This document shows, piece after piece, positions 25,198 to 37,155 of a stretch of 64,000 nt of DNA. The stretch lies in NCBI RefSeq assembly GCF_014270105.1, contig NZ_JACNMF010000002.1, positions 186,001 through 250,000 on the forward strand. Direction: 5' to 3'. A program made the translations under genes and the position numbers. Under the pieces are notes generated by a model. It did no database searches. It was not told the DNA's origin and saw only the letters and a list, made by a program, of their open reading frames with translations. Each line of letters starts with the position of its first letter. Within the stretch, counting starts at the first letter, position 1. The DNA comes from Hyunsoonleella aquatilis (GTDB lineage: Bacteria > Bacteroidota > Bacteroidia > Flavobacteriales > Flavobacteriaceae).

Positions 25198-26256
25198 TAG
25201 TACCCGATTCAACAATTCAACATATATCTTAATCCCTTCTTCTATTTCGTGTAAATGGATAAATTCATCTGCCGAATGTGAGCGCGTGCTATCCCCTGGC
25301 CCCAATTTCAATGAGGGGCAGGACAATACTGCTTGATCGGATAAAGTTGGCGAGCCATAGGTTGTTCTACCCATGGCAATACCAGCCTGCACTAAAGGAT
25401 GCTCCATTGGAATGGAAGACGAATTTAATCGTAAGCTACGTGGTGTAATGCTAGTTACCGGGGCTTCTTTTTGCAAAATTTCAGCTATTTCTTCATTGGA
25501 ATACGCATCATTCACACGTACATCAATTACCAAACTTAAATCGGCCGGAACGGCATTATGCTGTTTCCCTGCGCTGATTTGGCTTACAGTGAGTTTTACA
25601 TCACCGAGAGCATCAGACCCTTTCTCAAATCTAAAATCTTTGAACCACTGCAAGGTTTCAATCGACTTATAAATCACATTGTCGTCATTAGGATGTGCCG
25701 CGTGACTTGGCGTTCCTGTAAGCACCACATCAAAAACCACTAACCCCTTTTCGGCAACAGCCAAATTCATAAGTGTTGGCTCACCAACAATGGCTACGTC
25801 AACATTTGGAATAATTGGCAACATACTGTTCAGCCCATTTGGCCCACTGCTTTCCTCTTCCGCGGAAGCGACAATTACTAAATTATATTTTAAATTGTCG
25901 TGATTATAATAATACGTAAACACAGCAATTAAAGACACCAAACATCCACCTGCATCGTTGCTTCCCAAACCGTATAATTTACCATCTTCAACAATGGCTT
26001 TCAACGGATCCTTGGTATACGCGGAATTCGGCTTTACGGTATCGTGATGGGAGTTTAGTAACAAGGTCGGCTTACCTTCCTCAAAGTTCTTATTGACAGC
26101 CCAAACATTATTTCCATTGCGTTTGTACGCGATTTTATAACGCTTAAACCAATCTTCGATATGTGAAGCCGTCACCTCTTCTTCGGAAGAAAAAGATTGA
26201 GTTTCGATAAGCTGTTTTAAAAGCTCAATAGCCCCTTTTGTAAGTTGCTCTATCAT
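25174..26256 (-). CDS. M20 family N-acyl-ornithine/N-acyl-citrulline deacylase
   Basis: 360-aa metallopeptidase-fold deacylase. Zinc and catalytic residues are visible in NSHHDTV (His70, Asp72), SNDAGG (Asp101) and SAEEESSG (Glu133/Glu134), with an internal dimerisation domain around 170-285. In a pathway with acyl-ornithine carbamoyltransferase (27571-28509) its natural substrate should be N-acyl-citrulline rather than N-acetylornithine, releasing citrulline for ArgG. The start overlaps the argB stop by 4 nt (ATGA). The C-terminal LIPAKAGI is encoded by a dispersed palindromic repeat. Confidence 0.85.
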   Translation of the reverse strand: MIEQLTKGAIELLKQLIETQSFSSEEEVTASHIEDWFKRYKIAYKRNGNNVWAVNKNFEEGKPTLLLNSHHDTVKPNSAYTKDPLKAIVEDGKLYGLGSNDAGGCLVSLIAVFTYYYNHDNLKYNLVIVASAEEESSGPNGLNSMLPIIPNVDVAIVGEPTLMNLAVAEKGLVVFDVVLTGTPSHAAHPNDDNVIYKSIETLQWFKDFRFEKGSDALGDVKLTVSQISAGKQHNAVPADLSLVIDVRVNDAYSNEEIAEILQKEAPVTSITPRSLRLNSSSIPMEHPLVQAGIAMGRTTYGSPTLSDQAVLSCPSLKLGPGDSTRSHSADEFIHLHEIEEGIKIYVELLNRVLIPAKAGI

Positions 26257-27029
26257 AAATACAAGGTAGTAAACTTTTGCTCTTTATTACTTATCACCGT
26301 TGGGTTTCCTATAAACACCCTAGACACACCGGATTCGATGGCGTGAAAGCTATTATCCAATTTGGGAAGCATCCCGTCATGAAATGTGCCTTGATGTTTT
26401 AATATCTCATAGGTGCCGTAATCCATATATTCAATAACCGAATTTTCATCTTCAACCGACTTTAGCACACCATTTTTTTCAAAACAATAATACAACTCCA
26501 CATGATACAATTTTGAAAGCCCGATGGCTAATTCAGAGGCTATCGTATCCGCATTCGTATTCAGCAATTGCCCATTGCCGTCATGGGTAATGGCACAAAA
26601 TACGGGCGTAAAATCAGCTTCAATTAATTTATTAATTGACTTATGCGCCACAGTTTTAACGTCTCCCACATAACCAAAATCAATTTCTTTTACAGGTCTT
26701 TTTTCAGAATAAATACTGTTAATATCTGCACCTGTTAATCCAATCGCGTCAACATTCAATCCTTGGAGTTTAGCGACAATATTTTTATTCACCAAACCAC
26801 CATAAACCATGGTAATGACTTCCAAAGTATCGGCATCGGTAATTCTTCGGCCGTTCACCATTTTGGACTCAATTCCCAATTTGGATGCAATATGGGTAGC
26901 TCTTTTGCCACCACCGTGTACCAAAATTTTTTTGCCTTCTAACTTCGAAAATAGTTTTAAAAACGTATTTAGAGCGTTGGCATCTTCAATAACATTGCCT
27001 CCTATTTTTACTATGGATAGTTTTTCCAT
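26253..27029 (-). CDS. argB: N-acylglutamate kinase
   Basis: 258-aa amino acid kinase. The glycine-rich loops KIGGNVIED (8-16) and LVHGGGK (37-43) match ArgB, and NTNADTIASELA is the C-terminal substrate/ATP segment. It phosphorylates N-acetyl- or N-succinylglutamate in the second step of arginine synthesis; which acyl group is used here depends on the carbamoyltransferase discussed below. No N-terminal extension for arginine feedback is visible. Confidence 0.92.
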   Translation of the reverse strand: MEKLSIVKIGGNVIEDANALNTFLKLFSKLEGKKILVHGGGKRATHIASKLGIESKMVNGRRITDADTLEVITMVYGGLVNKNIVAKLQGLNVDAIGLTGADINSIYSEKRPVKEIDFGYVGDVKTVAHKSINKLIEADFTPVFCAITHDGNGQLLNTNADTIASELAIGLSKLYHVELYYCFEKNGVLKSVEDENSVIEYMDYGTYEILKHQGTFHDGMLPKLDNSFHAIESGVSRVFIGNPTVISNKEQKFTTLYL

Positions 27030-27062
27030 TTTATTATTTTGTAAAGCTGAAATTCAATACTA

Positions 27063-27557
27063 TCAATGCAGATCTTTATAATTTATTTTACTTCGATTAA
27101 TCTTTTTCATTTTATATAGAAACAATTCCTTCAGTCTTTGATTGAATTCGTGCTTTTTATTAAAAGCATCATTTCCTTGAGAGTCAAAAATCATTAAGCA
27201 GGCAAAATAGTCATTTATAGTTTCTGTACCATCCGCGACAATGGTAAAAACCTCTTCAGAACTCTCAAACAGTTTTAAATCCTCCCAAATAAATCTCTTA
27301 ATATTTTTTTGGTACTTCCCTTCCGCTTCTTTATCCCAAGTACCATAGTTTTGATTTATCAAACCAATTCCATCCAATGCAGATTTAATGTTGTAAAATC
27401 GTAATTCATTAAGGAACAATGTATCTTTTTCATTCTCATAAACGAATGGCACTTGGACTATTTCATATTTAACGTCATTCTTTTTCTTATCAATATTTTT
27501 AGCTACTGAACAGTTTAAATACGTTAAAAGTGTCAACATAAACAGAACGTTTTTCAT
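27063..27557 (-). CDS. small exported protein of unknown function in the arg operon
   Basis: 164-aa protein with a hydrophobic signal segment MKNVLFMLTLLTYLNCSVA; a Cys follows YLN, giving only a weak lipobox. The rest is charged and unlike any family I recognise. It sits between argF' (13 nt after it) and argB (33 nt) in the same direction, and is noticeably more A+T-rich than its neighbours, which hints at a later insertion. Nothing in it suggests an arginine-pathway enzyme. Confidence 0.7.
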   Translation of the reverse strand: MKNVLFMLTLLTYLNCSVAKNIDKKKNDVKYEIVQVPFVYENEKDTLFLNELRFYNIKSALDGIGLINQNYGTWDKEAEGKYQKNIKRFIWEDLKLFESSEEVFTIVADGTETINDYFACLMIFDSQGNDAFNKKHEFNQRLKELFLYKMKKINRSKINYKDLH

Positions 27558-27570
27558 ATGCTAAACGCGC

Positions 27571-28509
27571 TTACAAATTCTCCAATAATTTTTTCAAAAC
27601 CAATTGCGCCGCATAAGTCCTGTTATTGGCCTGTTGAATTACTAACGAACTATCAGAATCCAGTACCGCATCTTCAACCACAACGTTTCGTCTAACTGGC
27701 AAGCAGTGCAAAAATTTAGCTTTGCCAATTTCATCTTTTGTAATCATCCAATCTGAGTCTTTTTTGATAACCTTCCCATAGCTTTCATACGAACTCCAGT
27801 TTTTGGTGTACACAAAATCGGCATCCTTAAAGGCCTCCTTTTGATTATGGAAAATGGGTGTGTCGCCAGTGATTTCAGGATTTAGGTCATAGCCTTCCGG
27901 ATTGGCAATCACAAATTCAACATCCATCTTTTGCATTGCTTGAACAAAACTATTTGCCACTGCATGAGGCAATGCTTTAGTGTGGGGTGCCCAACTGAGT
28001 ACTACTTTTGGTTTTGAAACCTGAGCATGCTCCGAAATTGTCAAAGCATCCGTAAGCCCTTGTAATGGATGTCCCGTGGCACTTTCCATATTCACAATTG
28101 GGACGGAGGCATATTTTACAAACGATTTTAACACCTGCTCACTTTCATCCTTTACTTTGTCCGTTAAGGTTGGAAACGCCCTTACCGCAATAATATCGCA
28201 ATATTGCGATACAACGGCCGCCGCTTCCTTAATATGTTCTGCAGTGGTACCATTCATCACAGTGCCATCTCCAAACTCAATGCCCCAAGCATCACCCGAT
28301 ACATTCATCACAATAGGGTTCATCCCCAAATTCAATGCTGCTTTTTGTGTGCTTAACCGGGTACGCAAGCTGGAATTAAAGAATAACAAGCCTATGGTTT
28401 TGTTTCGGCCTAATTCGACATGTTTTAGCGGATTCGCCTTTAATGCCTTGGCTTCCTCTATCCAATTGCCCATATCGTCTATATCGTGAATGGATGTATA
28501 ATGTTTCAT
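27571..28509 (-). CDS. argF': N-acyl-ornithine carbamoyltransferase (ArgF')
   Basis: 312-aa transcarbamylase of the Bacteroidota acyl-ornithine type. The carbamoyl phosphate loop is NSSLRTRLS (45-53) in place of the usual STRTR, followed by HPLQGLTD and HCLPVRRN, as in N-succinylornithine transcarbamylase of Bacteroides fragilis. It transfers carbamoyl to N-acyl-ornithine, giving N-acyl-citrulline. At position 90, where the B. fragilis enzyme has Pro (succinyl) and the Xanthomonas enzyme Glu (acetyl), this protein has Ala (GTTAEHIKEA), so acyl preference is open. It follows proB by 37 nt. Confidence 0.9.
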   Translation of the reverse strand: MKHYTSIHDIDDMGNWIEEAKALKANPLKHVELGRNKTIGLLFFNSSLRTRLSTQKAALNLGMNPIVMNVSGDAWGIEFGDGTVMNGTTAEHIKEAAAVVSQYCDIIAVRAFPTLTDKVKDESEQVLKSFVKYASVPIVNMESATGHPLQGLTDALTISEHAQVSKPKVVLSWAPHTKALPHAVANSFVQAMQKMDVEFVIANPEGYDLNPEITGDTPIFHNQKEAFKDADFVYTKNWSSYESYGKVIKKDSDWMITKDEIGKAKFLHCLPVRRNVVVEDAVLDSDSSLVIQQANNRTYAAQLVLKKLLENL

Positions 28510-28523
28510 TTTCTTAATTTTTC

Positions 28524-28538
28524 AGACCTGGCAGGTCT
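28524..28538. repeat. short palindrome between proB and argF'
   Basis: Arms AGACCTG and CAGGTCT with one central base. The AGACCTGNCAGGTCT type is another dispersed flavobacterial intergenic palindrome. No other copy is seen in this window. Confidence 0.55.
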
Positions 28539-28546
28539 CAATTTCG

Positions 28547-29311
28547 TCATTTTATTTTGGTAAGTGGCACTTTGCCTTCCATAGCATTCACTATAAAATT
28601 GTCTTCTAAACCATTTACTATCCAAGTTTCAATATTTGATGCTTTGGCTACCTGAGCTGCCTCTATTTTACTCTTCATACCACCACTCCCATGGGAGGAT
28701 TTCGAATTGATCACCTCATCGGCCAACTCATCAAAATCACTTACATTTTCAATGGTTTTTGGTGTCCCATTTCCCATAGATGCCTTTGTATAAATACCAT
28801 TGGTGTTGGTTGCTATGATAAATAAATCTACATCCAAAAGCGAGGCTGTTAAGGCGCCCAACTTATCGTTATCGCCAAACTTGATTTCATCTGTTGCCAC
28901 CGTATCATTTTCATTAATGATCGGAATATAATTATTGTTCACCAACACATTGATGGTATTCATAATGTTGGTCCGGCTTTCCTTTTTCTCAAAGTCCGAA
29001 TACGATAGCAAACACTGCGAACTCAACAAACCATATTCCCGAAAAATCTCCTGATAAATTCTTATTAAATGGGGCTGACCAATGGACGCCAAAGCCTGTT
29101 TTACAAAGATTTCCTTTCGCTTGCTTTCCAATTTCACAAACTGCTTGGCCACCGCAATTGCTCCAGAACTCACGATAATAAATTCACAGGAATCCTTTAA
29201 TTGAGCAATTTGACTAGCAATATCCTCAATCTTTCCTCTTGAAATATTGTCGGTTTCCTTGGTAAGCGTATTGGAGCCTACTTTTAGCAATATGCGTTTC
29301 TTTTTCAGCAT
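28547..29311 (-). CDS. proB: glutamate 5-kinase
   Basis: 254-aa amino acid kinase making gamma-glutamyl phosphate for proline synthesis. It begins MLKKKRILLKVGSNTLT and has IIVSSGAIAVAK, ENDTVATDEIKFGDND and SHGSGGMKSKIEAA. It lacks the C-terminal PUA domain of the long E. coli form. I chose the ATG at 29309-29311, 1 nt after the proA stop, because it places the kinase motif at the usual distance; an in-frame start at 29335 would overlap proA. Confidence 0.92.
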   Translation of the reverse strand: MLKKKRILLKVGSNTLTKETDNISRGKIEDIASQIAQLKDSCEFIIVSSGAIAVAKQFVKLESKRKEIFVKQALASIGQPHLIRIYQEIFREYGLLSSQCLLSYSDFEKKESRTNIMNTINVLVNNNYIPIINENDTVATDEIKFGDNDKLGALTASLLDVDLFIIATNTNGIYTKASMGNGTPKTIENVSDFDELADEVINSKSSHGSGGMKSKIEAAQVAKASNIETWIVNGLEDNFIVNAMEGKVPLTKIK

Positions 29312-29312
29312 T

Positions 29313-30509
29313 CTATCGTATTTGACCGTTACCATGAACGTACCATTTATTGGTGACCAAATGTTGTAATCCGATTGGTCCTCTTTGGTGTAATTTATCG
29401 GTACTTATTGCCAATTCTCCTCCTAGCCCTAACTGACCTCCATCCGTAAAACGGGTAGAGGCATTGTGATAAACTGCTGCGGTATCTACATTAGCCATAA
29501 AGGTTTGTGCTTCGGTTTCATTTGTGGTGATGATAGACGATGAATGCCCTCCGGAATAGGTATTAATTTTTCCGATGGCATCTTCGTTCGAACCAATTTC
29601 ACCAATCACGATTTTATAATCCAAAAACTCCTCATACCAAATATCATTCGATTCATATTTTGAAACCCCATCTATTTGTGAAGTCGCTTCATCACCTAAA
29701 ATCTCAACACTGAATGACTTTAATTTTGAAATCAATGTTTCAACAAACTCATCTTTATTCGGAAGATTGGCATCAATCAAAACTTTGTCTACAGCATTGC
29801 AGGCAGAAATTTTTGCTGTTTTTCCATTAACGATCACATCTGTCGCAATGTCTAAATCGGCTTCCTTGTGCACATACACAAAGTTATTACCACGACCGCT
29901 GACAATCACCGGACAGGCTGCATGCCGTTTTACAAAGGCAATCAAACGCTCGCCACCACGAGGTACAATTAAATCTACACGTTGCGTTGGCTTTTCCAAA
30001 AATGCTTGGGTTTCTGTTCTGTTGAATTGCAGATATTCCACCCAATCCGTAGAAGCGCCTTGTTCTTTTAAGGCTTGATGCCACAATTCCACAATTTTCA
30101 GATTGGAACGTAGCGACTCCTTGCCTCCCTTGAGTAATATTTTGTTGCCGGATTTAAAAGCAATCCCGGCAGCCTCTACAGTAACATCAGGCCTAGATTC
30201 GTAAATAATCAATATGGTTCCAAACGATGCAGTTTTATTGTACACCTGCATCCCGTTTTCATGCTTGAAGCTGAAGCGCTCTACACCCACAGGGTCATCT
30301 TGTGAAGCCAAATGGGTTACTGCCCTTTTCATTTCATCTACTTTGGAATCGTCTACTTTTAAACGGTCAAACATGGAAATATCGTCGCCATCATAACTAT
30401 CTAAATCGGTTTTGTTGATGGCAATGATTGCCTTTCTTTCCTGTTCCAAAAGTTCGGCCATTCTTAATAAAACGGCGTTTCTGGTTTCTATGGATAATAA
30501 TGTGTTCAT
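29313..30509 (-). CDS. proA: glutamate-5-semialdehyde dehydrogenase
   Basis: 398-aa NADPH-dependent gamma-glutamyl phosphate reductase of the aldehyde dehydrogenase fold. The catalytic Cys is in KISACNAVDKVL (Cys237), with LIVPRGGERLI upstream. ProB feeds its substrate and the gene order proC-argD-proA-proB interleaves proline with arginine synthesis, both of which start from glutamate. Confidence 0.94.
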   Translation of the reverse strand: MNTLLSIETRNAVLLRMAELLEQERKAIIAINKTDLDSYDGDDISMFDRLKVDDSKVDEMKRAVTHLASQDDPVGVERFSFKHENGMQVYNKTASFGTILIIYESRPDVTVEAAGIAFKSGNKILLKGGKESLRSNLKIVELWHQALKEQGASTDWVEYLQFNRTETQAFLEKPTQRVDLIVPRGGERLIAFVKRHAACPVIVSGRGNNFVYVHKEADLDIATDVIVNGKTAKISACNAVDKVLIDANLPNKDEFVETLISKLKSFSVEILGDEATSQIDGVSKYESNDIWYEEFLDYKIVIGEIGSNEDAIGKINTYSGGHSSSIITTNETEAQTFMANVDTAAVYHNASTRFTDGGQLGLGGELAISTDKLHQRGPIGLQHLVTNKWYVHGNGQIR

Positions 30510-30533
30510 CTTATCTAGTTTTCAGTCGCAGTC

Positions 30534-31682
30534 TCAGTTTACAGTTTGTTCAACTTCGTTTAAAGCTTTCTTTAGTGCCTCAAAAAATTGATCAATATGC
30601 TCTTTTTTCACATTCAACGGTGGCAAAATTCGCAATAACTTTTTATTCGAAGCTCCTCCAGTAAAAATCTTATGGTTATAGATTAATTCCTTTCTTAATT
30701 CGCCCACTTCAAAATCAAATTCCAACCCCAACATTAAACCCCTTCCTTTGATTTGCTTTATCTGAGGGATTGCTTTCGCCTTTTCAACAAAGTAAGCGCC
30801 CATGTTATTCACATTGTCCGGCAAGTTTTCAGATTCAATCGTGTTTAATACGGCTAAACCTGCCGCACATGCCAAATGATTGCCACCAAAGGTGGTTCCC
30901 AACATGCCATATTTGGCTTCAATATCTGGGTGAATCAAGATACCTCCAATTGGGAATCCGTTACCCATGCCTTTAGCCAAGGAAATGATATCTGGAGTAA
31001 CATTGTAATGTTGAAATGCAAAAAACTTTCCAGACCTGGCGTAACCACATTGAATTTCATCTGCTATAAACATGGTGTTGTTTGCCTTGCACAACGCATC
31101 CACTTGCTCAAAGAACGCAGCCGTTCCTTGGTCAAGTCCACCAATTCCCTGAATAAACTCTACAATTACCGCACAAACATCCCCTTTTTCAAGCTCTCGT
31201 TTTACACCTTCAACATCATTCAGTTCTAAAATTGTAACCTCTTGCTGTGCATTTATTGGTGCAATAATATTTTTATTGTCCGTTGCCGCTACCGCTGCCG
31301 AAGTTCTTCCATGGAACCCTTTGGTAAAAGCAACTACTCGTTTTTTACCTGTTTTAAAGGAAGCCAATTTTAAAGCATTTTCATTGGCCTCCGCTCCCGA
31401 ATTCACTAAAAATAATTGGTAACCTTCACAACATGATAGTTTTTCTAATTTGGAAGCCAACTCCTTTTGTAATGGATTTTGAATGGCATTGGAATAAAAT
31501 CCTAAGGTCTGCACTTGGCTTGTAACAGCCTTTACATAATTTGGGTGCGCATGCCCAATTGAGATTACGGCATGTCCGCCATAAAGGTCTAAATACTCAG
31601 CGCCCTGGTCATCATAAACATGGATGCCTTTACCCGAAACCGGGGTAACATTGTATAATGGATAAACGTCAAATAATGGCAT
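30534..31682 (-). CDS. argD: acyl-ornithine aminotransferase
   Basis: 382-aa class III PLP aminotransferase converting N-acyl-glutamate semialdehyde to N-acyl-ornithine. Landmarks are NSGAEANENALKLA, FHGRTSAAVAAT, ADEIQCGYARSGKFFA and the PLP lysine in SLAKGMGNGFPIG. It begins 2 nt after the proC stop. Ornithine aminotransferase is a related alternative, but the operon context supports ArgD. Confidence 0.92.
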   Translation of the reverse strand: MPLFDVYPLYNVTPVSGKGIHVYDDQGAEYLDLYGGHAVISIGHAHPNYVKAVTSQVQTLGFYSNAIQNPLQKELASKLEKLSCCEGYQLFLVNSGAEANENALKLASFKTGKKRVVAFTKGFHGRTSAAVAATDNKNIIAPINAQQEVTILELNDVEGVKRELEKGDVCAVIVEFIQGIGGLDQGTAAFFEQVDALCKANNTMFIADEIQCGYARSGKFFAFQHYNVTPDIISLAKGMGNGFPIGGILIHPDIEAKYGMLGTTFGGNHLACAAGLAVLNTIESENLPDNVNNMGAYFVEKAKAIPQIKQIKGRGLMLGLEFDFEVGELRKELIYNHKIFTGGASNKKLLRILPPLNVKKEHIDQFFEALKKALNEVEQTVN

Positions 31683-31684
31683 GG

Positions 31685-32479
31685 CTAACTGTTTTTAATT
31701 TGATTAATTTTTTCAAATGAAGCGTTAATCCCTTTGATTAAGGATGAACTTAATCCTTGGTGCTCCATTTCATTCAACCCTTCAATAGTGCATCCACTTG
31801 GTGTGGTTACCCTATCGATTTCCGCCTCTGGGTGTCTGCCCGATTCTTTCAGTAAGCTTGCCGCCCCGTAACAGGTCTGCAAGGCTAGTTCATGGGCTTC
31901 TTCTGCTTCAAAGCCTAATTGAATAGCACCTTGGGTAGTAGCCCGCACCAAGCGCATCCAAAAGGCAATACCACTCGCACAAATTACTGTAGCCGCCTGA
32001 ATTTGCTCCTCAGGAATCACCATGGTAGTTCCCAACTGATTGAAAATATCCTTGGCCATTCCCAATTTATGTTCGCCGCTATCATTAGCCGAAAGGCAGG
32101 TCATGGATTTACCAATGGAAATCGCTGTGTTTGGCATTACACGGATGATTTGTTTATCGCTTCCTATAATACCCTCTATCCTTGAAATCTCAAACCCAGC
32201 CGCTACCGACATGACCACGTGATCATCAGTTATCAAAGGCTCGACTTCTTTTAAAACACCTTCAATATGACGCGGTTGCAACGCAAAAATTACCACATCG
32301 CTATTCTCCACTGCCGTGGCATTGCTATTCGTGATTTTTACGTAGGGCTCATCCACAAATTGATTCACCGCCGAGGTGTTTTTATCACTTAAATACAACG
32401 CCGAAAAGGACTTGTTTTTTATCAGCCCCTTTGCAATGGAACTCCCTAAATTCCCAGTACCTATAATTGCTATTTTCAT
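31685..32479 (-). CDS. proC: pyrroline-5-carboxylate reductase
   Basis: 264-aa NAD(P)H-dependent enzyme finishing proline synthesis. The Rossmann motif is MKIAIIGTGNLGSSIAKGL, and the C-terminal dimerisation part shows TQGAIQL and VTTPSGCTIEGL. It lies between argC and argD, with a 172-nt repeat-filled gap to argC. Confidence 0.94.
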   Translation of the reverse strand: MKIAIIGTGNLGSSIAKGLIKNKSFSALYLSDKNTSAVNQFVDEPYVKITNSNATAVENSDVVIFALQPRHIEGVLKEVEPLITDDHVVMSVAAGFEISRIEGIIGSDKQIIRVMPNTAISIGKSMTCLSANDSGEHKLGMAKDIFNQLGTTMVIPEEQIQAATVICASGIAFWMRLVRATTQGAIQLGFEAEEAHELALQTCYGAASLLKESGRHPEAEIDRVTTPSGCTIEGLNEMEHQGLSSSLIKGINASFEKINQIKNS

Positions 32480-32484
32480 AATTA

Positions 32485-32651
32485 AATAAAAGCCTCCCCC
32501 AACCCCTCCGAAGGAGGGGAGTACTTACTCATATTTTAAAATTATTATTTCATTTTTAGCTTATCTACTTTTATCTTTTTTGTCGTTACTCAAACGTAAA
32601 ACTCCGCAAGAGTTTCCTCCCCTTTGGGGAGGTTAGGTGGGGCCTGAGGCT
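32485..32651. repeat. inverted-repeat element filling the argC-proC gap
   Basis: Left end AAAAGCCTCCCCCAACCCC plus the hairpin CCCCTCCGAAGGAGGGG; right end TCCTCCCCTTTGGGGAGG then TTAGGTGGGGCCTGAGGCTTT. Outer ends pair (AAAGCCTC with GAGGCTTT), so the whole gap forms an inverted repeat about 165 bp long, like a small MITE. The type is common in flavobacterial genomes as I know them. Confidence 0.7.
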
Positions 32652-33635
32652 TTAGAAATACGTTGCCTTTAATCCTAACCCTGCGGTTTCTTCCAAACCA
32701 AACATCAAGTTCATATTTTGAATTGCTTGACCAGAAGCACCTTTTAATAAATTATCAATAATACTCGTTACTAGTAATTTACCATTGTGTTTATGCAGAT
32801 GAATTAAACATTTGTTAGTGTTGACCACTTGCTTTAAATGCAATTGATTCTCAGAAACAAAAGTAAATTTCGCGTCCTTATAATACTCACTATATATTCT
32901 TATGGCATCTTCAACAGAACCGCTAAAATCCGTATAAATAGTAGCAAAAATACCTCTTGAAAAATTACCCCGATTGGGCATAAACAATATTTCTGAGTTA
33001 AACCCTTCTTGCAATTGATTCACGGATTGGTTAATCTCTCCCAAGTGCTGATGCATAAAAGGCTTGTAATACGAAAAATTGTTGTCCCTCCATGTAAAAT
33101 GCGTGGTAGCTGACAGTGATGTCCCTGCTCCCGTAGCTCCAGTTACGGCATTGATATGCACGTCGGTATTCAACAATCCTTTATCTGCCAATGGCAACAA
33201 ACCTAATTGAATAGCCGTTGCAAAACATCCTGGGTTTGCAATATAATTTGCACTTTCAATAGAGGACTTGTTCAATTCTGGCAACCCGTAAACAAATGTT
33301 TTTCCATCAAATACCTTATCGGCTTCCAATCTAAAATCATTACCTAAATCGATGATTTTGGTGTTTTCAGAAAAAGAATTTGCTTTTAAAAACTTTACTG
33401 AATTCCCATGTCCCAAACACAAAAACAATACGTCCACATTAGGGTTTACCGTATCAGTAAAAGTCTTATCTAAAGACCCCACTAAATCTTGGTGTACTTT
33501 AGAAATTTGATTTCCTGCATTAGATGTACTATATACAAAATTAATCTCCGTTTCAGGGTGATGAATCAATAACCTAATTAATTCACCAGCCGTATAACCC
33601 GCACCACCTATGATTCCAACTTTTATTTTTCTCAT
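32652..33635 (-). CDS. argC: N-acyl-gamma-glutamyl-phosphate reductase
   Basis: 327-aa reductase forming N-acyl-glutamate semialdehyde. The NADP-binding IIGGAGYTAGELIRLL is at the N-terminus and the catalytic Cys137 is in YIANPGCFATAIQL. The length fits type 1 ArgC. It lies between argG and proC with repeat-rich gaps on both sides. Confidence 0.94.
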   Translation of the reverse strand: MRKIKVGIIGGAGYTAGELIRLLIHHPETEINFVYSTSNAGNQISKVHQDLVGSLDKTFTDTVNPNVDVLFLCLGHGNSVKFLKANSFSENTKIIDLGNDFRLEADKVFDGKTFVYGLPELNKSSIESANYIANPGCFATAIQLGLLPLADKGLLNTDVHINAVTGATGAGTSLSATTHFTWRDNNFSYYKPFMHQHLGEINQSVNQLQEGFNSEILFMPNRGNFSRGIFATIYTDFSGSVEDAIRIYSEYYKDAKFTFVSENQLHLKQVVNTNKCLIHLHKHNGKLLVTSIIDNLLKGASGQAIQNMNLMFGLEETAGLGLKATYF

Positions 33636-33792: not shown

Positions 33793-34968
33793 TCAAGAGT
33801 TTACTTGTTGATAAATCTTGTTTTGATTACCTAGGATTTTAATAAACCCTTTAGCATCATCGGCAGTCCATGCTTTGTTTTCCTCGCCATAGCTTCCAAA
33901 CTTTGCACTCATTAGGTCGTGCTTGGAAATAATGCCATCCAATGCAAAATGGTACGGCTTCAAAGTAACGATAACATCACCTGACACCTTTTCCTGACTG
34001 CTCTCCAAAAAGGCCTCAATATTTCGCATCACTGGATCCAAATACTGTCCTTCGTGCAAATGCATCCCGTAAAAACTGGACAGATAATCCTTGTGTTGCA
34101 ATTGCCATTTGGTTAACGTATGTTTTTCCAAAAGGTGATGGGCTTTCACAGTAATCAAAGCGGCAGCAGCCTCAAAACCAACCCTTCCTTTGATGCCCAC
34201 GATGGTATCGCCAACATGAATATCCCTGCCAATAGCATAGGCCGAAGCAATATCATTTAACTTTTCAATATTCACTTCCGGGGCATTCCTTTCACCATTA
34301 AATGCAACAAATTCACCCTTATCAAAAGTCAAAGTTACCTTTTCCTCTCCTGTTTTTTCCAATTGGGATGGATAGGCTTCCTCCGGCAAAGCTTTTTCAG
34401 AAGTTAAAGTCTCTGCCCCACCAACGCTGGTACCCCAAAGTCCTTTATTGATGGAGTATTTTGCCTTTTCCCAAGACATGTCAATACCATTGGCCTTCAA
34501 ATAGTCGATCTCCTCCTGTCTTGTCAATTTTTGATCCCGAATTGGAGTGATAATTTTTATCCCTGGCGCCAAAGTTTGAAAAATCATATCGAAACGCACT
34601 TGGTCGTTTCCAGCGCCTGTACTGCCATGGGCGATATATTCCGCATCGATACTTTTGGCATATTCAATAATCTCAATCGCCTGAATGATACGCTCAGCAC
34701 TCACAGATAACGGATACGTATTGTTCTTCAATACATTTCCAAAAATTAAGTACTTCACCACTTTTTGATAAAATGTGGGTACTGCATCAATATTTTTATA
34801 AGTACTTACGCCCATTTTATAGGCGTTGCTTTCAATATGTTGAATTTCTTCGGCAGTAAACCCACCTGTGTTAACGCTTACAGCATGCACGTCATATTCC
34901 TTTGACAAACTTACTGCGCAATATGAGGTATCCAATCCGCCACTGTATGCAATTACTAATTTCTTCAT
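33793..34968 (-). CDS. argG: argininosuccinate synthase
   Basis: 391-aa enzyme joining citrulline and aspartate with ATP. The PP-loop LVIAYSGGLDTSYCAV is at residues 4-19, and GSTGAGNDQVRFD is the citrulline/ATP segment. The stop of the upstream GNAT gene is immediately before its ATG (no spacer), so the two are tightly coupled. Confidence 0.94.
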   Translation of the reverse strand: MKKLVIAYSGGLDTSYCAVSLSKEYDVHAVSVNTGGFTAEEIQHIESNAYKMGVSTYKNIDAVPTFYQKVVKYLIFGNVLKNNTYPLSVSAERIIQAIEIIEYAKSIDAEYIAHGSTGAGNDQVRFDMIFQTLAPGIKIITPIRDQKLTRQEEIDYLKANGIDMSWEKAKYSINKGLWGTSVGGAETLTSEKALPEEAYPSQLEKTGEEKVTLTFDKGEFVAFNGERNAPEVNIEKLNDIASAYAIGRDIHVGDTIVGIKGRVGFEAAAALITVKAHHLLEKHTLTKWQLQHKDYLSSFYGMHLHEGQYLDPVMRNIEAFLESSQEKVSGDVIVTLKPYHFALDGIISKHDLMSAKFGSYGEENKAWTADDAKGFIKILGNQNKIYQQVNS

Positions 34969-35595
34969 CTATCTATCCTTATTTTTATCTTTTTTAAGGA
35001 ACAAAGCTTCCTTTATTCTTTTTAATCTTTTAAATGTCCTAGCTTTTATCTGAGTTTTCTCCTCTTTTTCCACTTTTTTAGGGTCGTAGAGCATCCCTGT
35101 ACATAAGCACATTTTACGACTGGTTCTGGACAACACATCGTAATTTTTGCAAGTTTGACAGCCATCCCAAAAGGTTTGGTCATCAGTTAATTCTGAAAAG
35201 GTAACAGGTTTATAACCCAAATCGCTATTCATTTTCATTACGGCCAAGCCTGTGGTAATACTGAAAACTTTGGCATCCGGAAACTTCTCTCTGGAATGCG
35301 CAAAAACCTTAAGTTTTATCTTTTTGGCTAAACCTTGGCCTCTGTAATTTGGATGCACAATCAACCCCGAGTTGGCCACAAATTTACCGTGGCCCCATTT
35401 TTCGATGTAACAAAATCCCGCAAATTTATCACCGTCCAATGCAATTACTGCGTTGCCGTTTTCAATCTTCTTGGATATATATTCCGGGGTCCTTCTAGCG
35501 ATACCAGTACCCCTAACGGAAGCAGACTCTGCAATGGTCTCGCAAATTTCCTCGGCGTATTTTATATGTGATGTGTCGGCTATAACAACCTTCAT
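34969..35595 (-). CDS. GNAT acyltransferase, candidate N-acylglutamate synthase
   Basis: 208-aa GCN5-type acyltransferase. The acyl-CoA loop is VHPNYRGQGLAKKIK (motif A) and the C-terminal part has clustered cysteines (WDGCQTCKNYD, RKMCLCTG) that may bind metal. I chose the ATG at 35593-35595 (MKVVIADTSHIKYAEEI); the open frame upstream reads through leader sequence. It is the first structural gene of the arg/pro operon and directly abuts argG. The operon otherwise lacks a first enzyme (ArgA/ArgJ), and I recall genetic work in Bacteroides that assigned N-acylglutamate synthesis to a GNAT protein in this position. Assignment here is inference. Confidence 0.75.
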   Translation of the reverse strand: MKVVIADTSHIKYAEEICETIAESASVRGTGIARRTPEYISKKIENGNAVIALDGDKFAGFCYIEKWGHGKFVANSGLIVHPNYRGQGLAKKIKLKVFAHSREKFPDAKVFSITTGLAVMKMNSDLGYKPVTFSELTDDQTFWDGCQTCKNYDVLSRTSRKMCLCTGMLYDPKKVEKEEKTQIKARTFKRLKRIKEALFLKKDKNKDR

Positions 35596-35681
35596 GTCTG
35601 TCGTCTTTGTGTTTCTGTTAAAGTGTTTTCTGTGGAATACTGAACCGGACGCACCTGGGTTCAAAAATAAATAATATACCC

Positions 35682-35714
35682 TTACGGGCGACGGGGAAAA
35701 CGACGACGCATCAT
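35682..35714 (-). CDS. arginine-rich leader peptide 2 of the arg/pro operon
   Basis: Ten-codon reading frame with its ATG at 35712-35714 and TAA at 35682-35684, encoding MMRRRFPRRP: five of ten residues are Arg, using CGT and CGC codons. The stop is 86 nt upstream of the GNAT start codon. Just after the stop, GGGT can pair with ACCC 17 nt later, and CCC-GTAA-GGG can form across the stop codon, so alternative structures are possible. No T-run terminator is evident. The Arg-codon block shares TTTCCCCGT with leader 1, suggesting duplication. Regulatory function (ribosome-sensed arginine supply) is inference. Confidence 0.65.
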   Translation of the reverse strand: MMRRRFPRRP

Positions 35715-35827
35715 AAGCCCTTGGTTAATTGTTGAATTAACTTTGATTTGATTTACTATGATTTGGATTTTTGACACTGTGTTGAAAAATTAAAAATGAC
35801 GTTTTAGGTTTACTTCGCTTTAGGGCA

Positions 35828-35899
35828 TTAGAAGCGACGGCGCCTGCGCACGGGGAAACCGGGAGTGGTAAAACGTATGTTGTTTTTTAAATTTTTCAT
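35828..35899 (-). CDS. arginine-rich leader peptide 1 of the arg/pro operon
   Basis: Twenty-three-codon frame, ATG at 35897-35899, TAA at 35828-35830. The peptide begins MKNLKNNIRFTTPGFPV and ends RRRRRF, with six Arg in total and five in a row just before the end (codons CGC AGG CGC CGT CGC). A run of Arg codons next to the stop is the classic design of an amino acid leader peptide, here ahead of an arginine operon. The last Arg codon lies in a possible stem (CGCTT 35832-35836 with AAGCG 35816-35820). It is G+C-rich in A+T-rich surroundings only because of the Arg codons. Confidence 0.7.
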   Translation of the reverse strand: MKNLKNNIRFTTPGFPVRRRRRF

Positions 35900-35957
35900 G
35901 CCGTAAAACTAAGACATTATTTTCTAAACGCCTAAAAATGACTCAGTTTTTAGAAAT

Positions 35958-35976
35958 AATTGAGGAAATTTCAATT
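35958..35976. promoter_or_regulatory. dyad upstream of the arginine leader peptides
   Basis: Inverted repeat AATTGA (35958-35963) and TCAATT (35971-35976) with a 7-bp spacer, about 60 nt upstream of leader peptide 1. The A+T-rich symmetry loosely recalls ArgR boxes, but I cannot show homology; an operator is possible. Confidence 0.3.
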
Positions 35977-36060
35977 TTAGGAAGATTTTGTTTCAAAAAA
36001 TTAAATATTTCTTGGAATAGCTAAAAAAACAAGCATTGCAGAACTAAAACAAGTCTTCAA

Positions 36061-37155
36061 CTAAAGTCTTGTTACACTGTATAATTGAACTTCGGATGTC
36101 TTTCCCCTTAATAGCAGTTTATCGACTTCTTCAAATGAAAAAACATCCGCATCACCCAATCTCTCTCTAAGTTCTTTCGATATCAAAACTTTAGAATTCA
36201 ATGCATTGCATTTATCCTGTATACGAGAGGCGGTGTTTAGTATATCGCCTGTATGAACTATATCCTTTTTTATGATTCCTATTTCACCCGTTGTTACTTT
36301 GCCTATGTGATACCCGGCCTTAAATTCTGGCACCAAACCAAATTTCTTTTGATAATAGGATTTCTTCCTATTCACAGCATCTTCAATCTTAAAAAAACAA
36401 TGCAAACAGTTGTTATTCTCAATACCTGATTTTTCATTCCATGTAACTACAATTTCATCACCTACATATTGATACACTTGCCCTGAAGTCTCTAATATAG
36501 CGTTAGACATGTTTGCGTAGTATGCCCTTAATAACTCAAAATACGTTTCGCTGCCCAAACGTTCCGCAATCGTTGTGGAGGATTTCATATCCAAAAACAT
36601 AAAAGTACACACTTCCTCTTTCGGCCTGTGATACCTGCCCATATATTTAGGCAACAAATCCGTTCCAAAATATTCTTCCATTTCAGAATAAAATAGGGCC
36701 ACATCCAATGCAAGCCCAACGTAAATAACAATAGCCCAAAAAGAAAATGTTTGGACAAATTGCGTAATCAACTCCAAAACAAAAGGATCAAAAACCGAAA
36801 CTTGATTGACCCTGGCCGTATATACCAAACCAAAAACCAATAAAAACGTGACGGTAAGTGCCAGGTAAAACACGCTCTTAAAGAGCATTTTTACCCATAA
36901 AGATTTATTTCGAAATTGCTTTTTGAGCCATAATACCTCAATACCACCTTGGATAAATCCCATTAAAAATGAGCCGATGCAGATCGCAACCAGTGAAGAC
37001 CTGAAATGGTATTTATTCCCAGTAGCTGGATAGAAGCCCGTCCTACCAATAATTCCATACTCCAACAGTGCATAGCAAAAGCCGAAAAACAACCAAATTA
37101 CAGCAAACGACAGGATAAGCCGAATATTACGAATATGGTTGGCATGAAGTGACAT
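36061..37155 (-). CDS. membrane-bound class III adenylate/guanylate cyclase
   Basis: 364-aa protein with four predicted N-terminal membrane helices (about 10-33, 53-75, 90-113, 127-155) followed by a cytoplasmic cyclase homology domain (about 180-360). Metal-binding Asp189 (FLDMKSST) and Asp233 (GDEIVVTW), the substrate Lys279 (PEFKAG), and the transition-state Asn307/Arg311 (ILNTASRIQ) are all present, so it should be active; the Lys suggests ATP as substrate. No effector domain other than the membrane part is seen. It runs toward the arg leader but is probably a separate unit. Confidence 0.88.
   Translation of the reverse strand: MSLHANHIRNIRLILSFAVIWLFFGFCYALLEYGIIGRTGFYPATGNKYHFRSSLVAICIGSFLMGFIQGGIEVLWLKKQFRNKSLWVKMLFKSVFYLALTVTFLLVFGLVYTARVNQVSVFDPFVLELITQFVQTFSFWAIVIYVGLALDVALFYSEMEEYFGTDLLPKYMGRYHRPKEEVCTFMFLDMKSSTTIAERLGSETYFELLRAYYANMSNAILETSGQVYQYVGDEIVVTWNEKSGIENNNCLHCFFKIEDAVNRKKSYYQKKFGLVPEFKAGYHIGKVTTGEIGIIKKDIVHTGDILNTASRIQDKCNALNSKVLISKELRERLGDADVFSFEEVDKLLLRGKTSEVQLYSVTRL

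Follow-up and report, generated by a model that had tools for sequence, protein, structure and literature searches.

The leader of the arginine operon analyzed here carries two short arginine-rich reading frames in series on the minus strand, and these frames are real, far beyond chance. They are conserved in relatives, their Arg-rich ends are selected as codons with a bias toward CGY, and the second is followed by two small hairpins, P1 and P2, the latter with covarying arms. We consider it likely that this leader is a ribosome-read arginine sensor in which the state of P1 and P2 sets expression of the GNAT–argG operon, probably in a factor-dependent way. The sequence-only reading had proposed a ribosome-mediated arginine sensor with tandem leaders; its prediction that the frames and the Arg runs would be conserved was tested in relatives and upheld, which supports the proposal. 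That reading did not include the conserved hairpins P1 and P2, a further hairpin P0 of the tandem group, or the single-leader form seen in other families. The window, to which all coordinates refer, is the whole analyzed stretch of 64,000 nucleotides from Hyunsoonleella aquatilis.

The first gene of the operon encodes a GNAT acetyltransferase (34969–35595, minus strand; PF00583), next to argG for argininosuccinate synthase (33793–34968, minus strand; PF00764 and PF20979). The remaining arginine/proline genes (26253–33635, minus strand) are argC, proC, an argD-type aminotransferase, proA, proB, an ornithine-type carbamoyltransferase and an argB-type kinase; their families come from Pfam, the specific names are our reading, and proB, left unscanned, is wholly a reading. 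A guanylate/adenylate cyclase-domain gene (PF00211; 36061–37155, same strand) lies directly upstream of the leader region. The GNAT protein served as the anchor of the family survey, and a protein search found its gene in 130 of 199 Flavobacteriaceae genomes. Our 141 family loci comprise the best 80 of 165 (L006–L085), 60 fetched from the 100 GNAT places that had no automatic locus (40 from the upper part of the list, 20 from the lower) and the window; the set is weighted to close relatives and leaves out 28 automatic loci (L086–L113). The 80 relatives' loci include four genus-group genomes, among them Hyunsoonleella flava, H. jejuensis and Jejuia pallidilutea. Within the genus group, five of 12 genomes have the GNAT gene and seven gave no match, one of the seven being less than 90% complete.

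Leader 1 (MKNLKNNIRFTTPGFPVRRRRRF) lies where the sequence-only reading had placed it, at 35828–35899 on the minus strand, and runs for 23 codons from ATG to TAA with six Arg codons, five of them CGC/CGT. Four nucleotides 5′ of its ATG, the sequence TAGTTTTA (35904–35911, minus strand) has the form of a Bacteroidota sigma-A −7 box (TAnnTTTG type). The same leader or a close equivalent occupies about −300 to −228 from the downstream gene in many of the 80 relatives. A strict rule requiring an ATG start, a TAnnTTTR-type box no more than 16 nt away, three or more Arg in the last nine residues and an end between −300 and −205 finds leader 1 in 89 of the 141 family loci; seven further loci have a GTG-start leader 1 by pattern (L009, L016, L017, L053, L055, L139 and L150), and L081 also has one, with fewer Arg. 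Of the 89 loci, 74 have the box 4 nt from the ATG, 13 have it at 5 nt and two at 6 nt; the selection of these loci required a box within 16 nt but set no exact spacing. In Flavobacterium psychrophilum, the promoter box was placed at −12 to −5, and leaderless mRNAs made up 5.5% of the mRNAs examined in that study (PMC9723704). A box at that distance, 4–6 nt before the ATG, would put the start at the ATG or 1–2 nt before it, and we thus predict that transcription in the window starts at the A of the leader-1 ATG and that the mRNA of the tandem form is leaderless or nearly so. A possible hairpin (TCGCTT/AAGCGA; 35815–35837, minus strand) spans the leader-1 stop, at a similar position and with differing sequence in many relatives; in 64 of 89 loci it scores higher than the mean of shuffles, a weak signal inflated by related sequences.

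Leader 2 (MSKIQIIVNQIKVNSTINQGLMMRRRFPRRP; 35682–35777, minus strand) is probably a 31-codon frame with a GTG start, as its open frame and its conservation suggest. A 10-codon mini-gene, MMRRRFPRRP (35682–35714, minus strand), had been read here earlier: its end at 35682 and its peptide from the ATG at 35714 hold, its length does not, since it is the terminal part of a frame that stays open to the GTG at 35777. An in-frame GTG, TTG or ATG stands 85–108 nt before the leader-2 end in 80 of 86 tandem loci (TTG 34, GTG 34, ATG 12), and an ATG near the start proposed earlier in 32 of the 86 only. In many of the 80 relatives, leader 2 lies at about −180 to −85 from the downstream gene. Leader 2, P1 and P2 occur together by pattern in 126 of the 141 family loci, and in these the leader-2 frame is open upstream of P1 for a median of 39 codons (range 20–64, at least 25 in 124), against medians of 10 and 12 in the other two frames (at least 25 in 19 and 10 loci); a frame so much longer than its two neighbors is no chance ORF. 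Among the remaining 15 loci, four have P2 with a P1 missed by the pattern (L136, L139, L150, L071), and the P2 pattern finds nothing in the other eleven; of these, L154, L163, L170 and L172 are variants by eye, L010 and L045 have a lost or degenerate region, and in L155, L162, L166, L167 and L168 P2 is absent also by eye. It had also been suggested, from the shared TTTCCCCGT, that one leader is a duplicate of the other. We rejected this idea, as any 9-mer common to both leaders occurs in only 4 of 86 tandem loci.

We followed codon changes along a minimum spanning tree of aligned codons, dropping edges more than 30% different, under a simple model whose kappa of 2 and AT-rich base weights were assumed rather than fitted. 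For leader 2, the test set was the 98 of 126 loci whose leader ends in Arg-Pro and stays open for 30 codons or more. Across codons −9 to −3, 62 of 132 single-change codons were synonymous against 34.3 expected (p = 1.8e-7), and across codons −30 to −10, 52 of 256 against 62.0 (p = 0.94). For leader 1 (79 of the 89 loci, split by length), the figures were 41 of 97 against 25.5 at length 23 (p = 4.6e-4), 45 of 105 against 26.4 at length 24 (p = 5.5e-5) and 16 of 48 against 12.0 at length 22 (p = 0.12). The synonymous excess at the Arg-rich ends, with none in the leader-2 body, means that the ends are kept as codons and the body is free; the last two leader-2 codons are beyond judgement, because CGC-CC is at once a selection pattern and the P1 stem. 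The leader thus has two features of an attenuator: a short ORF with several codons for the end product, and regulatory codons selected as codons in the spanning-tree test.

These results bear on two other explanations of the frames. It is very improbable that they are chance or low-complexity ORFs overlying a conserved RNA. The leader-2 body does evolve as non-coding sequence would, but the long open frame (median 39 codons versus 10 and 12), the synonymous excess at both leaders' ends and the recurrence of the pattern in other families under shuffle control all speak against chance. Nascent-peptide arrest is exemplified by the fungal arginine attenuator peptide (AAP) and the bacterial SpeFL; here, the peptide itself, with (V)RRxFPRRP at its C terminus before the stop, would stall the ribosome, and arginine might be its ligand. 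Residues at the end of leader 2 are indeed recurrent: in the 98 leaders ending in Arg-Pro (so chosen), Arg stands at −3 in 88, at −8 in 62 and at −7 in 57, and Phe at −5 in 65. Even so, position −6 varies widely, −4 is Pro in 53 and Arg in 22 of the 98, and the CGC-CC end doubles as P1 stem and selection pattern. Conservation beyond the regulatory residues was not found for leader-2 codons −30 to −10, which show no selection on the peptide (p = 0.94), and we regard peptide arrest as quite unlikely.

Codon choice sets the leaders apart from neighboring genes. The 465 Arg codons of leader 1 include 254 CGC and 122 CGT (together 376) and 40 AGA. Among 623 Arg codons in the GNAT gene of 80 loci, there are 378 AGA, 94 CGT and 41 CGC (CGC and CGT together 135), and among 130 in 13 window genes, 43 AGA, 20 CGT and nine CGC. 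Biased regulatory codons are known from attenuation leaders, where they were explained by selective charging (PMC1183508). As an alternative, the GC-rich codons may serve RNA pairing; P1 could account in this way for the leader-2 end only.

The most upstream of three hairpins, P0 (GTTAATT-CAAC-AATTAAC; 35724–35741, minus strand), lies within leader 2 and keeps a constant place in many tandem loci with differing paired sequences. It is not general among single-leader loci, and P0-type hairpins passed a lax test in 111 of 126 loci against 78 expected, which is too weak alone. P1 (GCCC-GTAA-GGGT; 35678–35689, minus strand) holds the leader-2 stop codon in its loop. Its paired sequence differs in L136, L150 and, less clearly, L139 (GCAC/GTGC type, by eye), and in several Polaribacter-type loci leader 2 stops a few codons past P1. 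About 16 nt 3′ of P1 follows P2 (GAACC-CA-GG-TGCGT-CC-GGTTC; 35642–35662, minus strand), whose arms covary, with the loop motif AGGTGNGTCC at 35647–35656 on the minus strand. Its general form is a stem of 5–6 bp, one or two unpaired bases ending in A, the pairs GG/CC and the loop U-G-N-G-U.

For the structure analysis, we picked 66 of the 130 motif-bearing loci for diversity. In P1 and P2, 89.2% of cells are paired and double changes occur in six of 13 pairs, five of these in P2, whose arms have eight pairs. The whole-structure covariation score is 0.223 against 0.132 for shuffled data, and none of 500 shuffles scored as high. Sliding the 3′ partners always lowers both the paired cells and the score, the best being 0.148 at +1, where doubly changed cells are equal in number (39), doubly changed pairs are five versus six and paired cells 54.3% versus 89.2%. 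The GG/CC pairs of P2 are invariant in the 66-locus set; in one locus of another genome (L208, G184), AGATGTGTTC is, by eye, a double change that preserves the inner pair. The middle base of the loop, over 130 loci, is A in 88, T in 23 and C in 19, and never G.

P1 and P2 might themselves be the sensor, either a riboswitch or a site bound by a repressor protein, with the leaders of minor importance. P2 is the most conserved part of the region, its loop almost invariant and its stem covarying, as such a sensor would be. Synonymous change, however, keeps the Arg-rich ends both upstream of P1 and in leader 1, whose end in the window is some 140 nt upstream of P1, and the Arg-ending leaders of other families often come without a P2-like loop (23 of 37 have no CC-YNHGY-GG), so that we find this explanation unlikely. 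Several narrower ideas about P2 were also discarded. A mimic of the tRNA-Arg anticodon was dropped because the middle loop base varies among A, T and C, and a third ORF through P2 because, by eye, its frame is broken by the bulge length. Covarying arms fit an RNA rather than a repressor's DNA palindrome, and a Shine-Dalgarno-like AGGUG was dropped since by eye a start codon at a fitting distance is absent. Within its own genome, AGGTGNGTCCNGTTC has a single exact match, at P2. With up to two mismatches, the P2 motif (17 + 21 matches) is about as common as a control pattern (24 + 11), and among 29 other genomic matches with a locus (eight more have none), four fit a lax P1 pattern and none of these four resembles P1 plus P2 by eye.

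The earlier observation that no intrinsic terminator is obvious was borne out. A lenient terminator rule was passed after leader 2 in eight of 126 loci against 0.6 expected, each time by a weak P1 hairpin; after leader 1, in two of 89 against 0.4; and in other families, in two of 37 against 0.2. The same rule finds the his terminator, our positive control: upstream of hisG in the same genome (L204, reverse strand), a leader with His codons (MNITQTHHHFYICSQAK) precedes a strong terminator made of a hairpin and a T-run, so that the his operon likely uses classical attenuation. A conserved canonical intrinsic terminator was not found at the arginine leader in the 126 leader-2 and 89 leader-1 loci, and no mutually exclusive antiterminator/terminator pair was noticed on unsystematic inspection. 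These findings limit the case for classical attenuation at the arginine operon, in which P1 and the U-rich linker would form a weak intrinsic terminator blocked by a ribosome stalled on Arg codons. That P1 spans the stop codon and that all eight passes fall on P1, against 0.6 expected, would suit it. Against it stand the 118 of 126 loci that fail the rule, a stem of only 4–5 bp with a linker that is not a U-run, and the real terminator form at the his leader; it would also leave P2 without a role despite its better-conserved loop. We therefore doubt this explanation, and the output of the arginine leader is probably not a canonical terminator.

The arginine sensor that we favor may be pictured as follows. 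Transcription would begin at, or 1–2 nt from, the leader-1 ATG, as the promoter box suggests, and ribosomes would translate leader 1 and next leader 2. When charged tRNA-Arg for CGC/CGT is scarce, ribosomes would slow at the Arg codons that end each leader. A ribosome held at the last Arg codons of leader 2 would cover P1 and keep it open, and one that reaches the stop and leaves would let P1 form beside P2. The state of P1 and P2 would then set the expression level of the GNAT–argG operon, with arginine scarcity presumably raising it. The output is most likely factor-dependent, through Rho-type termination or its prevention or through a protein that reads P2, given the lack of a canonical intrinsic terminator. 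Sequence alone does not separate Rho-dependent termination from the action of a protein on P2 or from a translational effect.

Some observations count against the sensor model. A ribosome that stalls at the Arg codons would not extend as far as P2. Few-Arg leaders exist, those of L033–L036 and L054 ending in MCHIFPRRP with two Arg. Two tandem relatives are natural mutants: both keep leader 1, but the P1/P2 region is gone from L010 and damaged in L045. To these we add the 35 of 75 loci from other families in which no Arg-ending ORF was found under a rule of 12–60 codons.

In the single-leader form, the promoter box, where found, mostly lies 7 nt before the start of the leader-2 counterpart (11 of 18 loci), as examples of which we give MKGQRHISNTLSNLAPVRPFSRRRRP (L119) and MKNKTQAIYSNWAAVPVRSFVPVRRRP (L146). 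Among 40 loci without leader 1 under the strict rule, a box adjoining leader 2 was not found in 16. On a tree of 65 GNAT proteins, whose rows were labelled by hand (10 unlabelled, some long branches), 28 of 31 tandem rows fall into one 33-row branch with support 99/93, together with four unclear rows and one single; the other three tandem rows (G014, G018, G122) lie outside. Label changes for the tandem group number eight against a shuffled mean of 21.9, a low number due partly to the 10 rows without label. Single-leader rows and outgroups surround the main tandem branch, which suggests that the tandem form is the derived one, found chiefly in a single Flavobacteriaceae clade. Two leader ORFs on one leader RNA, as in a tandem attenuator, are present, a common transcript being inferred, and the Arg-richness of both points to one signal.

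With model R1, the window's genome yielded a single strong match (E 3e-21), the next best being at E 0.03, and six of 12 genus-group genomes were matched, the five with the GNAT gene and G009. The weak match in G009 (L218) is a P1-like hairpin without P2 and was rejected. Among 295 genomes of the class there were six matches, strong in G000, G142, G477 and G184, all in the family; among 296 of the order there were 25, and the 22 strong ones (E < 1e-10) all belong to the family. The wide searches used stricter filters, so weak relatives may be missed. A weak match in G399 (L209) lies inside a CRISPR-like array and was taken as chance, and in those of G303 (L210), G679 (L238) and G608 (L237) P1 and P2 do not occur together by eye. 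Three Flavobacterium-type genomes (L241, L242 and L243) have a differing conserved leader, MNKxSLHITSLSRT...SPEVRxL, with an adjacent promoter box; it lies about −330 to −240 before the GNAT gene and has few Arg codons, and P1 and P2 are absent by eye.

Across the class, the GNAT anchor finds the gene in 85 of 247 genomes. Of the 79 upstream regions examined at this level, 27 came from automatic loci and 52 were fetched; 75 lie outside the Flavobacteriaceae. In 40 of these 75, against 4.1 expected from shuffles, the GNAT gene is preceded by an ORF of 12–60 codons with at least three Arg in its last 14 and an end at −200 to −50; on the other strand, a laxer rule gave 12 of 75. For closer analysis, 37 of the 75 loci were chosen by hand, with leaders such as MTKETTYSIFTPSASAARRPFGRRPARV (f32), MKTFINIAQIENLHRTSMVVSEPVVNFSPVRRRRYFFRV (f16) and MKIYQTYHLSLFPLRRFRRPSGV (f63). 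The pattern CC-YNHGY-GG occurs in the last 170 nt of 16 of the 75 loci, from nine families, against 0.95 expected, in a test that is not independent because the pattern was formed after seeing these sequences; 14 of the 16 are among the 37, the other 23 of which gave no such match. The Flavobacteriaceae-type GG-YNHGY-CC was found in three of 75 against 0.83 expected, and two reversed control patterns in none and two against 1.07 and 0.9. Arg-ending leaders thus precede the same gene in other families of the Bacteroidia, some with a P2-like hairpin. A broader reading is possible, and we offer it tentatively: a class-wide and hitherto undescribed regulatory RNA of the Bacteroidia, in which a leader peptide with leaderless or near-leaderless mRNA would gauge the charging of the CGY-reading arginine tRNA and P1 would switch P2, whose pentaloop is Y-N-H-G-Y and which would be read by a trans-acting factor that admits RNA polymerase or ribosomes to the arginine operon, one Flavobacteriaceae clade having added a second leader in series. 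If this is right, the second leader would sharpen the response.

An arginine T-box or another known RNA family was rejected, since no Rfam match rose above the cut-off: in the window at 35400–36200, with E up to 5, four matches (E 1.4–3.3) were all far below the cut-offs and none was a T-box, and at gathering scores 10 of the 141 loci gave none. The F. psychrophilum study mentions attenuation by leader peptides ahead of amino acid operons, as well as new 5′ elements upstream of pheA and hisG; its main text names arginine once, concerning cyanophycin, and its supplement may hold more (PMC9723704). Among the open-access matches listed, there is no report of an arginine leader or of leader-peptide control of arginine biosynthesis in Bacteroidota; a prior description, for instance in a subscription journal or a preprint, is possible. 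Should the sensor reading be true, the Bacteroidia would gain an arginine sensor, with attenuation-like control whose output is other than an intrinsic terminator. The loci would also allow a single sensor to be compared with two in series as nature has arranged them, and would provide a test of why leaders prefer CGC/CGT, codons little used by neighboring genes.

Like the his, trp, leu and thr attenuators, the leader has a short ORF with end-product codons before a biosynthetic operon, and its regulatory codons are biased, as in attenuation leaders (PMC1183508); it differs in the amino acid, arginine, in its two serial leaders, in the absence of a canonical terminator and in the conserved P2. 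In Staphylococcus aureus, Arg codons in the leader peptide rbfL likewise sense arginine limitation, but rbfL has 8 codons with AGA/AGG, acts by blocking a biofilm regulator's ribosome site and is not part of a biosynthetic operon (PMC13009471). LoaP antitermination uses a small UNCG-type hairpin in the leader mRNA, to which the P2 loop has a formal likeness only, its U-G-N-G-U being the pattern by which the family loci were selected; LoaP is a NusG paralog, and the passages concerned mention no leader peptide (PMC12691694). The actinobacterial LEU element before leuA, for which a protein target was proposed, also joins an ORF with regulatory codons to a conserved RNA structure; there the pseudoknot reaches the Shine-Dalgarno box, the amino acid is leucine and the phylum is another (PMC1262725). 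Finally, mgtM and mgtP of the Salmonella mgtCBR leader are two leader ORFs on one leader mRNA, one with codons for a limiting amino acid; they respond to two signals, ATP and proline, whereas both leaders described here carry Arg codons (PMC3641672).
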